64,000 nucleotides of DNA, taken from positions 18,212,501 to 18,276,500 of the forward strand of contig JAYKKT010000086.1 of NCBI GenBank assembly GCA_036023115.1, given 5' to 3'. This document shows positions 17,701 to 26,700 of the stretch, piece by piece (the first letter of the stretch is position 1; each line of letters starts with the position of its first letter). Position numbers and translations under genes: made by a program. This DNA is from Brasenia schreberi (taxonomy: Eukaryota > Streptophyta > Magnoliopsida > Nymphaeales > Cabombaceae). The notes under the pieces are model-generated. The model was not told the DNA's origin. It worked only from the letters and a program-made list of their open reading frames with translations, and made no database searches.

Positions 17701-20700
17701 AGAAGTGTGCCAGAAGGTATTAAATGGCAATGCTTGCAGATGATTGAGAGCATACAGGAAAGGAGACAACAAAAGGATGATTTCCAGATGTGTGAAGAAG
17801 CTGATGATGCTACTGCCACTGGAGTTGGATTCACTAATAGTTTGCCTTCAGATGCTAGAACAGATATTGGTAGTAGCAGTTCGCGAGCACCTAGCAGAGG
17901 AAAGAGGGTTGCAGCTGAAGACTTTGGAGGTGGCAGAAGAGGAAGTTCAGGAAGGAGTAGAGGAAGAGCTTCTTCTTCTAGCATACATTCGTTCTTTCCT
18001 CCTTCCACTACACCTGGTGCTCAGCCAGGAATTCGTGCTGCTATGGCTTCAGAACAACTGCACGATCAAGCAGACCTTGCAGTGGGCAGATGGTTTTATG
18101 ATGCATGCATTCTATTTAATGCAGCAAACAGTTTTCATTTTCAAGCAATGGCAGATGCAATTGCTAACATTGGTCCAGGATACAGGATGCCCTCTTATCA
18201 GAAGTTGAGAGGGAAGATATTAGATCAGACCGTGATTGAAGTGCAGTAATACTGTTCGACTTTGAGACAATCGTGAAAGGAAACAGGATGCACTATCATG
18301 ACAGATGGATGGACCGATAGGCGAGGAAGGACATTACTAAACTTTCTTGTATATTGTCCTAAAGGACTCATGTTTTTGAGATCTCTAGATATGTCAGAGG
18401 AGAGACACACTGCAGAGATCCTACGAGAGGAATTTGATAAGGTTATACAAGAGGTTGGGCTAGAAAATGTAGTCCAATTGATTACAGATAATGCAGCTAA
18501 CTACAAAGCAACTGGAAAGGAGTTAGCTGATATTTATGGGACTTTCTACTGGACACCATGTGCAGCCCATTGTTTAGATCTCATCCTCGAGGACATTGGT
18601 GAGATGGATGAAATAAAGGCAGCAACTGAGTGTTGTCAAGATATTACAAAATTTATTTATAACCATGCATTTGTTTTGTGTATGATGAGGAGATACACAG
18701 AAGGTGCAGAGCTTCTTCGCACAGCTGCAACTCGGTTCGCAACAAACTTCTTATCTGTACAAAGTATTGTAAGACAGAAGCAAGCTTTAAAGAGAATGTT
18801 CTCCTCAGATGAGTGGCAACAATTTGCAGAATTGCCACAAAACAGAAGGAACAGAAAGTTAAATGAGATTGCAGAAACGGTTTTTAGAAGTTCATTTTGG
18901 AATGCATGCATCAGATTATTGAAAATTACTTGTCCTTTAGTGAAAGTTTTGAGATTGGCTGACAGCGAGGAGAAACCATCTATGGGCTACCTTTATGAAG
19001 CCATGGACAGGGCAAAAGAAGCGATCAGAAATAACTTTAATGGAAAAAAAAGAGATTATGTGCCCGTGTGGAAAATAATTGATAGTAGATGGAATAAACA
19101 ATTGCATCAGCCTATTCATGCAGCAGCCTACTATTTAAACCCATCATCGAGGTACTCAGCAACCTTCAAAAGGGACGGTGAGGTTAATCGAGGAATCATT
19201 GAATGCATCGACAGATTAGTCCCTGATGAGAGCATAGTAGATGCGATACATCGAGAGATGGAGATATATGATAATGCTCTTCACTTGATGGGTTTGCCTG
19301 TTGCAATTCGCAACCGCTCTACGATGCGTCCAGGTAAATTGTTTATTTTCATATTTAAGTTGCATCTTACATTACTGTGGATTATTATGTCTCTAATGTT
19401 TATATTTTTTTTACAGATGTTTGGTGGAACAGGTTTGGAAGTGATTGTCCAAACCTTAGAGATTTTGGAGTTAGAGTCTTAAGCCAAACCTGTAGTGCAA
19501 CAGGTTATGAAAGAAATTGGAGTGTTTTTGAACACATCCATACAAAAAAGCGCAACAGGTTGGAACATAAAAGGCTTAATGATTTGGTTTATATTCGTTG
19601 TAACATGCGCCTTCGTGAAAGGTAATGTTGTATTACTTTCAAATTTTCAATACGATATTATTTAACTTCAGTTTTCAATTGTTAATATTACTTACTAATT
19701 GTTTATCTTTGTTTGTGTCGTAGGCAATTAAAAAAAGTAAATAGAGAAGAAAGTCAGTTCGATCCAATAAGTTTGGATAATTTTGATATATTAGAAGATT
19801 GGGTTATGGAAGACACTGAAGAAAATGCCCTCCTAACAGAAGAAGACATTGCCTGGATTAATTTGGAAGGAGCGCAACAACATTATAGAGATGAAGAATT
19901 TGATTTTGAAGAAGAAGGTGTGGGCGTGGCTAATGATGATGAGGATATGCAACAAGGAGAAGATGAAGATTATTTAGTTGATGATCCTGATTACAATTTG
20001 TAAAATGTAACATTATATGTAACTGTAGTGTACTGTAAAGTGTAAACTATGTCTGTATTTTATTTTTTGGATTCAAAATATGTAAATTTGGATGCAATTA
20101 TTCAATGTTGAATGCTCAATCTGTACTAAACTTACATTATATGAATTTAAAGCAATTATCAGATTTTTTCTGATTTTTTTTCTGATTTTTTTTTATTTTT
20201 TACTATTTTTTATTAATTTTTAATTATTTTTTGCATTATTTTAATATTAAAGTATGATACGATACGATACGATACGCCCGTATCGTGGAGCCCAGCGATA
20301 CACGATACAATACGCGTCAGACAACACTGCTTTTGACTGTTCAGAAAGAACTGATTAGTGTTGAAGATAGTGTTCTTTGTGTTAGTTTTATAATTTCTGA
20401 TGTTTTTAGGTATTATTGTACTTTCCCGAAATACTAGGGGCATTTTGGTAATTTTATGTACTAAGGGTATTTTGGTCATTTTGGTCAATTTTCGTTTTAC
20501 AGCTCCTTATATAAGGGCTGGTAGGTTGTATTAGGAAGGTAGAGGCAGTGTGTAAGAAAGAGAGAGAAAGAGGGGGGGGCGGCCTCCAGTAGAGGTTCGC
20601 CCCTTTCCTTCAATCTCTCGTGTTTCCTCCTTAATATTAATCATATTTCGTGTTTAATCTTCTGCGATTCTACTTTAAATTTCAACATGGTATCAGAGCA

Positions 20701-23700: not shown

Positions 23701-26700
23701 ATCATTCTTTATTGTTTCTTTCCAACACTTTTGTGGTCGTCCTCTACCTCTTTTAATACTTTCCAAATTTAGTTTTTCTAACCTTCTTACAAGTTCTTCT
23801 TTTGATCTTCTTTCTATATGTCCAAACCATCTTAAACGATGTTCTCTCATTTTATCCTCTATTGGTGCCACTCCTAATTTGTTTCTAATAACCTCATTAT
23901 GTATACGGTCTTTTCTTGTATGGCCACTCATCCATCTCAACATCTTCAGTTCTGTCACAAACATCTTTTGTACATGTTGATGATTAACTCCCCAACACAC
24001 AGAACCATAAAACATGGCAGGCCTAATTGCTTCTCTATAATATTTACCTTTTAATTTTTATGGTATCTTCTTATCACAAAGAATACCTTATGCTCCTCTC
24101 CATTTTAACCAACCAGCATTAATTCTATGTGTAACATCTATTTGGAGACTGAAAAAGTTTGAAAAAAGAAAGAAAGAGAGAAAGGCATTCATATTTCATC
24201 TTCTAATGATTGACAAGAAGAAAGTGAAAGAGACGGCCTAATTCCATCTTCTATCTATTTGGAGACCATACTTTATGATTGAAAGAAGAAAGTGAGAGAG
24301 AGGGGTGACTGCATCAGAATAGTCAGCCTATCCAATTCCATCTTCTAAGTGTTTAGTCATCTTCTATCTATTTGGAAACCATACTTTATGATTGAAAGAA
24401 GAAAGTGAGAGAGAGCGGTGATTGCATCAGAATTGTCAGCCTATCCAATTCCATCTTCTATCAAGTGTTTGGTTGGTGGTTTGATCATCATAATGATCCA
24501 TAAGTGTGGTGAAGAAAAAACAAGTGTTTCAGCTAGTGTGTACGGAGGAGATGGTACCTTCTACCATAAAAGATCATATTTCTCAAGAATTAAAAAACAT
24601 GACTTTTGAAGTGTAGCTGCTTAAGATGATGAGCGAGGAAGGCTAAGTTGAAGTTGTTGCAGCCAAAGAAACTGTGAAAGATTAGATCAGCCATGAAAAT
24701 AGATGAAGAATGTTGCAAACAGATATGAAGATTTTTTGGCAAGTTTGGAGTTCAAAGTATCTCACTCCCAACTTGAGGGAGGTGTTGAAGATAGTGTTCT
24801 TTGTGTTAGTTTTATAATTTCTGATGTTTTTAGGTATTATTGTACTTGCCCGAAATACTAGGGGTATTTTGGTAATTTTCTATACTAAGGGTATTTTGGT
24901 CAATTTTCACTTTACAACTCCTTATATAAGGGCTGGTAGGTTATATTAGGAAGGTAGAGGCAGTGTGTAAGAAAGAGAGAGAAAGAGGGGGGGTGGGGTC
25001 TGCCCCTTTCCTTCAATCTCTCGTGATTCCTCCTTAATATTAATCATATTTCGTGTTTAATCTTCTGTGATTCTACTTTCAATTTCAACAATTAGTAAGT
25101 TGTATTCTTAATAAATTGAAATAAATCCTTTTACTATAGCAGCAAGCAGAAGGCCATCTTAAACTCAGGAACTTCTGACAGGTCCACCTTACTGCTGGTA
25201 CATATTCACAAATGCATGTCTCAAAGGGTTTGCCTAGCAATTTGTCTTATCATTTGACCTATTTACTTTAGTACTGGTGCACATAAAGGCATGTATCAAA
25301 GGGTGGTGATACAATGGATCGAGGGATCTTATGCTGCCCATAATAAACATATCTAAATCTCTACAACATGGACACAAGTCTGAGGAACTGCATGAGGGAA
25401 GGAAAGCAACCTTTGAAATGTGAACACCCAGACTTCTATGAATTCCAGAACATTGCATGCATATGAAAATTCCGAGGTTTACACTTGCCCATCTTGGTCC
25501 TCTACATGATAAATAAGCTACATTAGTTAGAAAGGGAAAATGGAGATCATAATATTTAAATAAACTAAAAAAGGCAACCAATACAATAACCACATCTATA
25601 GAATTGGAAACTAGAAGAATCTGAAGCAAATGTTACAAAAAAAACTCGGAATGTAAAACACCTGAAGTGTGCCGTATAAACCGAAATCAGACACAAGATA
25701 TATGGACTAGGCTAGAAGGAAGATAACTCAAGACCACGTTACATTTCTTTCTGCAAGCATTTAGATGTAGATTAATATTTTCACCAAAATTGGTAAGCTA
25801 GCCATATGACTTTCTTAGTTAACTCATGACTTGACTTGATTCCTTTAAGAGATTTAGCTCATTAAAATTCCACCAGTGAGGTTTGTTATTCATAATGAAT
25901 ACAGCTCATGTTCATGCGGCTACACGTTGACCACATCTCCTTTGTAGGTTCAAGAAAAGTGGCACAACTAGACCCCATTTCTGACTGTCAGAGAGAGAAG
26001 GAGAGAGAGGGAGAGAGAGAAGTGAGAATACATATTGGGCGGACACAATTTTACAGGCAGGGTAACTGCAGTGTTGGCTCATCAATGCCTTCTTCCAGGT
26101 AAAACCAAAGCCTAAGGCGCTGCAGCCGGAAGAGTGATGTCAGACACCCACTAAGATCACAGGAGTTTTACTCTATATCTTAAGAAAATTACCTCCAAGG
26201 GTATGGTTTCACAAAGTTCTGGACATACACAACCTTACGAATTTGACAAATGAGCTGATCAGCATGAATGGAAAGCCTTCCTGAGACAAGTTGATCTGAG
26301 CATGCATTCTGGACACGCATTCTGGACACTCAGGATGCTTAATAAAACAGCTTTCTGCTCATATCCTTTACAATGTGAACAACAAATGGGCTAGCAACAA
26401 GCAAAGCTTTGCCTAACTATAACAGCTCGCTTCGTGTACCACCCCTACTGTTTTACAACATTAGTTCAAGATGCTTGAAACCCTAATCCATCGGTTACCT
26501 CCCAGTTTGTTATAAAATGTGTCCCCAGCTTTTCCCAGTATAAGAAGATAAAGAAAAAAAGTTCCTCACCAAAGGTGGAAATGCTCATTGGCAGCAAAGT
26601 TATAAAAGCCATACCGTATCATATGATACAATATGCATACCGTACATATCAGTACCTAAACTCATACAATTCAGGTACCTATATCACACAAAGCCATTTA

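Follow-up and report, generated by a model that had tools for sequence, protein, structure and literature searches.

An LTR retrotransposon of Brasenia schreberi with pieces of at least four host genes, and its sister elements with differing host-gene cargo

The stretch of DNA analysed here, called the window throughout, comprises 64,000 nt of the Brasenia schreberi genome (GCA_036023115.1, contig JAYKKT010000086.1, positions 18,212,501 to 18,276,500 of the forward strand). It contains a complete long terminal repeat (LTR) retrotransposon of 4.7 kb at window positions 20359-25090, or about 4.2 kb once an inserted long interspersed nuclear element (LINE) is subtracted, and the inner region of this element carries pieces of at least four unrelated host genes, all in the sense of the element: FTSHI2, a kinesin-5, a DYRK kinase and STI1/HOP. 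An original prediction, made from the sequence before any database search, had described the element as a chimera of at least three genes. These three were found as named, and the count proved incomplete, with FTSHI2 at 21042-21246 as the fourth.

Structure of the element

The element has two direct LTRs with TG..CA ends, which places it among the LTR retrotransposons. The 5' LTR (TGTTGA...TCAACA) occupies 20359-20687 (329 bp) and the 3' LTR 24783-25090 (308 bp), both on the plus strand. A primer binding site, TGGTATCAGAGC, abuts the 5' LTR at 20688-20699 (+), a polypurine tract, AACTTGAGGGAGG, lies directly before the 3' LTR at 24770-24782 (+), and the whole is enclosed by a 5-bp target site duplication, ATTAG, with identical copies at 20354-20358 and 25091-25095, all as predicted. 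The two LTRs are identical at 294 of 307 ungapped positions (Kimura two-parameter distance, K2P, 0.044), and under plant substitution rates of 1.3e-8 and 6.5e-9 this corresponds to an insertion age of about 1.7-3.4 million years.

The predicted lack of gag-pol was borne out, with zero gag or pol Pfam families in the three sense frames of 20688-23583 and 24140-24782 and the three antisense frames of 20688-23583, so that within the scanned frames the element is non-autonomous; the same kind of frame scan detected RVT_2 in flanking DNA where it was present. We take the primer binding site to be complementary to tRNA-iMet and, together with the end sequences, to indicate a copia-like placement, and the retrotransposon family is probably Copia-like. 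Membership of the class of terminal-repeat retrotransposons in miniature (TRIM) was ruled out by the 4.7-kb length and LTRs of more than 300 bp. A scan of IMG/VR for an LTR pattern gave 0 matches.

Host-gene cargo

The first piece after the 5' LTR is the C-terminal part of FTSHI2, an inactive chloroplast FtsH (21042-21246, +), recognised by two PDB matches to one protein, in order (phmmer E 1.1e-6 and 3.5e-5). It has a 65-bp deletion after ~21113 that is private to the window copy; these 65 bp are kept in two further copies of the chimera, L010 and L016 (labels L009-L028 denote genomic neighbourhoods fetched around other LTR matches), and in L010 they read like the lost part of the FtsHi2 tail. 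The predicted kinesin-5 piece is present as the end of the motor domain at 21909-22046 (+; PDB phmmer E 4.6e-10, the span being drawn from the second-best PDB chain), and presumably extends as coiled coil to ~22184. A 31-bp tandem duplication at 22103-22165 (+) is again private to the window copy, L010 and L016 being 31 bp shorter.

The DYRK-type kinase piece (22197-22619, +) consists of three joined exons with two short internal deletions, one of which shows two bases of microhomology by eye. Plant proteins match it at tblastn E 1e-38 and reach 22619, and the nucleotide match to the genomic donor described below spans 22197-22587. Its identity had been predicted correctly, and its start, placed originally at 22297, lies ~100 bp earlier. 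The STI1/HOP piece is made up of segment a (22882-22956, +), identified by protein match to residues 365-389 of the Nelumbo protein P0018, and segment b (22957-23115, +), in which donor alignment shows two joined exons and an end beside the donor stop codon. At the protein level the match to the Nelumbo protein is 92% identical for 22882-22956 and 89% for 22956-23117, which upholds the predicted STI1/HOP identity, with the nucleotide match ending at 23115. The internal deletions that had been noted in the DYRK and STI1 pieces are seen in protein and donor alignments alike, and they are not private to the window copy (no gap of 6 or more positions there in a three-way alignment).

Stops and frame shifts interrupt the captured pieces. 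All 120 of 120 plant DYRK/STI1 proteins, originally collected by similarity to the inner region itself, match that region at E<=1e-4, and the same proteins give 0 matches to its reversed sequence, to 20 base shuffles and to the remaining window. In the window element Pfam, even at E<=0.1, finds only STI1 and a weak kinesin.

Donor loci and missing introns

Searching the host genome (1.055 Gb in 92 contigs, labelled C46, C57 and so on) identified donors for two of these pieces, both of which retain introns that the element lacks. The STI1 donor is C88:30377205-30377780, identical to the element at 111 of 112 positions in the last exon and 50 of 52 in the preceding exon (5 bases are common to both matches). 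Its exons are separated by a 417-bp GT..AG intron, in the order exon CCTATTATGCGACAG, intron GTACCTCTGT...GATGGTGCAG, next exon GTGCTGATTG; the element runs straight through the junction, CCTATTATGTGACAG being followed immediately by GTGCTGATTG. The donor exon for segment a lies outside the fetched C88 stretch. The DYRK donor, C57:9452433-9452990, is 95% identical over the first 181 bp and has a 100-bp GT..AG intron that is missing from the element at ~22374/22375: the donor reads GAAATAG, then the intron GTTTTC...AAACAG, then GACTGGATTC, and the element at this junction reads GAAATAGGATTGGATTC. At a second donor splice site, CATCAG/GTATGT, the element continues with GAGCATCTTTTC, which codes for EHLF as plant DYRKs do; the fetched stretch stops short of the donor's third exon. 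Two further DYRK loci, one on C60 and one on C46, split the match in the same way as C57.

Because the donor introns are absent at splice-exact joins in the element, the STI1 and DYRK pieces were captured from spliced RNA. The prediction that the pieces are intron-free and were acquired at the RNA level by template switching is thus confirmed for these two genes as regards RNA capture, and template switching is the route that we infer. A third case is found in a sister element, L018, whose O-FucT piece matches C56 as separate exons (query 247-335, 334-471 and 467-704) spaced ~94 and 87 bp apart, an arrangement repeated on C73 and C84, with a fourth match on C56 (query 700-827) 7.4 kb further on; these exon coordinates point to RNA-level capture here as well. 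For STI1, DYRK and O-FucT, intron-free host exons therefore stand between LTRs, in the manner of the maize element Bs1.

The C57 donor (within L030, C57:9452250-9453250) has an in-frame TAA that is also present in the element, and it is therefore itself a decayed or aberrant gene copy, one that was presumably transcribed and spliced. Among codons invariant in plants, 10 of 94 are altered in the element, and this count was dropped as an age clock because the DYRK donor already holds one of those stops. Populus isoforms X1/X4, from which an intron within the DYRK piece had first been suspected, were superseded by the donor comparison.

Copies of the chimera

Window positions 21900-23460, used as a query against the host genome, gave 221 first-look candidates, of which 40 were scored. 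Among these 40, C54 (L016) matches the chimera over query 1-1419, C85 (L010) and C68 both match it over 1-1428, C50 does so up to 1428 with the match split in two, and C91 covers 1-980; other loci give shorter partial matches. In their common part, the window copy, L010 and L016 have 94-95% identity to one another. Loci on C70 and C73 were rejected as kinesin donors and are other copies of the element, since their similarity extends into its central segment.

The window copy resembles L010 and L016 as far as ~23327 and resembles L023 from ~23314, and it therefore appears to have arisen by recombination between two family members, with the join near 23314-23327. Its 3' half (23314-24782, +) is related to L023 at 88-91% in the main pieces. 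Within this half lies a feature absent from the original prediction, a truncated minus-strand LINE at 23580-24137 that is 95.5% identical to window positions 60513-61068. This LINE has its own 18/19-bp target duplication (23561-23579 and 24138-24156), so it arrived after the LTR element; from its TTG-type tail we take it to be RTE-like.

Other parts of the inner region are shared more widely. The leader (20700-21041, +) is common to L010, L016 and L012, and in L012 the similarity ends at 21045, next to where the FTSHI2 piece begins. Positions 21663-21813 (+) belong to a central segment that is patchily common to several sister elements with differing cargo, and a 162-bp module whose source is unassigned (22718-22879, +) has a 93% match in L015 beside other cargo.

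The retrotransposon family

The genome-wide search for further copies that had been suggested at the outset revealed a multi-copy family, the examined members of which mostly carry other host genes. The LTR query yielded 3132 first-look candidates, 40 of which were scored (the element's own two LTRs included); 20 genomic neighbourhoods were fetched, and 14 have an LTR pair. These 14 sister elements are mostly 3.5-4.3 kb long, with exceptions at 2.9 kb (cut at a partial LTR) and 8.0 kb (a LINE inside), and K2P between their LTRs ranges from 0.029 to 0.108. The primer binding site is exact in 6 of the 14, has one change in 6 and two changes in 2. The 5-bp target site duplication is exact in 7, has one mismatch in 4 and is lacking in 3, counts that are slightly biased toward matches, as the best-fitting end was chosen from a small number of candidates.

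Two of the 14 LTR pairs (L010 and L016) carry the chimera of the window element. The 12 others have in common the LTRs and usually a repeat-rich 3' part as well, and their 5' two thirds are largely different; all 14 sisters contain the final 150 bp upstream of the 3' LTR. A scan of both strands over 1.4-2.5 kb at the 5' side of each of the 12 inner regions (in L013 a minor part of its 7.3 kb) found no gag or pol. Modules recur among otherwise differing cargoes: a central-segment patch from L025 is found in 10 of 15 elements and one from L012 in 12 of 15 (the source included each time), L018 and L025 have 516 bp in common, and L012 and L027 share ~0.9 kb at 86%.

Neighbourhoods with an incomplete element add to this picture. 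In L019, L022 and L024, which have no LTR pair, the family 3' part adjoins an LTR. The cargo of L021 (4892-7206) is L011-like at 91-93% and that of L022 is L017-like at 94-97%, so other cargoes are likewise multi-copy. L014 and L028 have a lone LTR. In L028:2417-5644 a family LTR with no inner region interrupts a LINE that extends to either side of it, and is likely a solo LTR.

Host genes in the sister elements

We scanned the 12 elements without this chimera for Pfam domains (E<=0.01) in sense frames of 1.4-2.5 kb, with X at stops, and counted domains that overlap or adjoin within the same protein as one piece. This gave 18 sense host-gene pieces in 11 of the 12 sisters, 10 of which have a match above the curated Pfam cut-off. 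The cargo differs from one element to the next, with ATP synthase gamma (just under the cut-off) and SET in L009, RPW8 in L012, GIP1_N in L013, PPR in L015, thymidine kinase (2e-33) in L017, O-FucT (2.4e-57), a methyltransferase and TSR2 in L018, CMS1 in L020, a histidine kinase in L025, and SET and PRONE in L026. Up to four host genes occur in a single sister, L011, which carries an AAA ATPase (AAA_lid_3, DUF7751), bHLH, USP and katanin p80, together with a hAT dimerisation domain that was excluded from the host count. The five pieces, this domain included, stand in series in L011:1428-3928 (-), the richest mosaic seen. L009:1931-4431 contains a match to the Tsr1/BMS1 C-terminal domain that is antisense to the element (E 6.8e-24). 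The Pfam counts for the sisters are likely too low, since in the window element Pfam finds just STI1 and the weak kinesin.

As a control, 2.5-kb flanking stretches were read in three frames of one strand. The 12 stretches gave two families, both of them transposon reverse transcriptases, and some of the true flanks contain LINE pieces. One stretch, L022:5500-8000, was dropped because it lies inside an L017-like element, read antisense; the 11 true flanks that remain (27.5 kb) contain 0 host-gene families.

Surroundings in the window

About 300 bp from the element, an ArfGAP-domain exon lies at 25237-25632 (-; PF01412, E 3e-14) with AG/GT borders. Two open reading frames at 9299-9703 and 10171-10500 (-) are without Pfam matches, and we take them to resemble later exons of the same AGD5-like gene. 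If so, the element would lie antisense within an intron of more than 10 kb filled with transposable elements. The LTR element sits just beyond the end of a repeat at 17301-20334 that has zf-BED and DUF659 domains and that we assume to be hAT-like; an inverted-orientation copy is at 47875-50899. In an empty-site test with this second copy, similarity ends 29 bp before the insertion and no empty site was found. The window also holds related LINE copies at 11752-14534, 56000-58108 and 59531-61068 (RVT_1 at 59839-60354, E 1.2e-21), a 266-bp unit repeated in tandem about three times at 34740-35555, and an open reading frame with an RRM domain at 62517-62972 (+; E 9.8e-13).

Origin of the cargo

We consider it very probable that these elements form a non-autonomous LTR family that is mobilised in trans and fills its inner region through jumps of reverse transcriptase to spliced host mRNAs. 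Such a family would keep the signals for transcription, priming and integration in the absence of gag-pol, and the proteins of an autonomous partner would mobilise and package its RNA in trans. Spliced host mRNAs may be co-packaged with the element RNA in virus-like particles, where reverse transcriptase could jump repeatedly from element RNA to host mRNA and back. Jumps made during minus-strand synthesis would leave intron-free cargo in the sense orientation, pieces would accumulate on either side of the patchily shared central segment, and jumps between element RNAs could reshuffle modules among copies. A template-switching and co-packaging model is described in the available part of PMC5408686, according to which several switches are possible in theory.

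Alternatively, processed pseudogenes made by LINEs could have been inserted serially into an ordinary LTR element. LINEs have been active here, with one inside the element and others in the window, and their retrocopies would likewise be intron-free. The pieces, however, are truncated at both ends and closely spaced, the STI1 piece stops at its stop codon with no 3' untranslated region, and the lack of A or T stretches reaching 8 bases in 20688-23579 disfavours a LINE source. LINE insertion also fits poorly with the orientation of the cargo, which is sense for 4 of 4 pieces in the window element and for 18 pieces against 3 antisense in the 12 sisters (one-sided binomial ~7e-4, by hand), and we regard this explanation as unlikely.

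It is very unlikely that the chimera is a one-off like Bs1 and the other cargoes are background. Known precedent, in the literature as far as it was accessible, does consist of Bs1-like single elements, but host domains above the Pfam cut-off occur in 10 of 12 sisters compared with none in 11 flanks of similar length (read on one strand). Still less probable is capture at the DNA level, by gap repair or by a Helitron or Pack-MULE type of process, into an LTR element. Mosaics of several genes are typical of Helitrons and Pack-MULEs, but the splice-exact loss of introns relative to two donors, the exon-by-exon match to a third and the sense bias speak against it; DNA-level capture is contradicted for STI1, DYRK and O-FucT, and could still hold for the antisense pieces. 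That the fragments are part of a host gene around the element, misrepresented by assembly or annotation, has a negligible probability despite the nearby ArfGAP exon and the seemingly intronic position of the element in that gene, because the pieces sit between LTRs with an exact target site duplication, are found again elsewhere in the genome between different LTR pairs and have donors on other contigs, and copies L010 and L016 contradict an artefact.

Several observations weigh against capture by jumps to spliced mRNAs in a whole family. Antisense frames of the sisters contain three host families, RIBIOP_C (6.8e-24, in L009), PSD13_N (9.3e-8) and Vps36-NZF-N (0.0021); such pieces are unexplained by simple jumps to mRNA and need another route. 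L023 has zero host-gene matches at the Pfam threshold used, and the single match in L027, aldehyde dehydrogenase at 1.9e-4, is below the cut-off. Base-level donor alignment covers two genes, the third, O-FucT, being matched through exon coordinates, and a kinesin-5 donor was not found among the 40 scored of 221 candidates for 21900-23460. Part of 20700-23330 is without an assigned source, and protein searches of ~21245-21514 and of joined frames from 22621-23440 came back empty, although length limits may mask donors there. The sisters are a non-random sample drawn from the best LTR matches, 6 of the 20 neighbourhoods lack an LTR pair, the flank control was reduced from 12 to 11 stretches, and no autonomous partner was seen among the scanned elements.

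Relation to known systems and implications

The closest precedents come from maize and soybean. Maize Bs1, as described in the accessible text of PMC13317346, is an LTR element in which three unrelated host genes are represented by exon-only pieces, and the element studied here resembles it in carrying exon-only host-gene pieces (see also PMC4717578). Compared with Bs1, as portrayed in the reviews available, it differs in having at least 4 genes in one copy and sisters with other genes. PMC4717578, again in its accessible part, reports two TRIMs with exons of more than two genes, and a soybean TRIM, GmaRetroS15, with exon-only pieces of three genes that is intron-free across exons 5-9 of one of them; gene-bearing TRIMs there are 1.2-1.4 kb long and amount to 30 elements in seven of 289 subfamilies. 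The Brasenia elements are like GmaRetroS15 in being non-autonomous, with a 5-bp target site duplication and exon-only pieces of several genes, and unlike it, on the same partial text, in their length of ~3.5-4.3 kb and in that most sampled members bear cargo, which is largely different from member to member.

Surveys of whole genomes have found gene capture by LTR elements on a larger scale. In maize B73, the available part of PMC2774510 lists 425 intact LTR elements with gene fragments, representing at least 189 independent captures, and states that under the conditions of that survey no element had more than one standard nuclear gene, in contrast to the several genes each in the window element, L011, L018 and L026. 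Captured genes within LTR elements number 672 in rice and 1,343 in sorghum (PMC3726574), and the accessible account is of captured genes and not of family-wide mosaics of several spliced pieces as found here. For flax, PMC3544724 describes numerous LTR elements whose interior is either unidentified or made of host-gene sequence, and refers to an element of soybean composed of mixed segments. In this literature search we found no report of an LTR family whose copies bear differing multi-gene spliced mosaics; most subscription journals lay outside the search, which is thus no proof of novelty, and the family may already be named in a published annotation of transposable elements.

Pack-MULEs and gene-carrying Helitrons are high-copy families whose members carry mosaics of differing host genes. 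These are DNA transposons, and Pack-MULEs contain introns as well as exons according to the accessible text of PMC4717578, whereas capture in the Brasenia family is from spliced RNA. Mosaic capture at the scale of a family is thus known for DNA transposons, and the LTR literature found, in the parts accessible, describes elements with a single gene apart from a small number of multi-gene cases.

Taken as a whole, this high-copy LTR family is likely to act as a genome-wide exon shuffler at the RNA level, a counterpart of Pack-MULEs and Helitrons in which the capture of multiple mRNAs is the normal state, cargo from donors of many functions lies on both sides of a semi-conserved core, and modules are exchanged among copies. 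With donors present in the same genome at 95-99% identity and with their introns, the junctions can be read at base level, and open questions therefore become directly testable: how often reverse transcriptase jumps, whether microhomology guides it, which mRNAs enter the particles, whether small RNAs from the cargo act back on the donors, and at what rate spliced chimeric genes are born.

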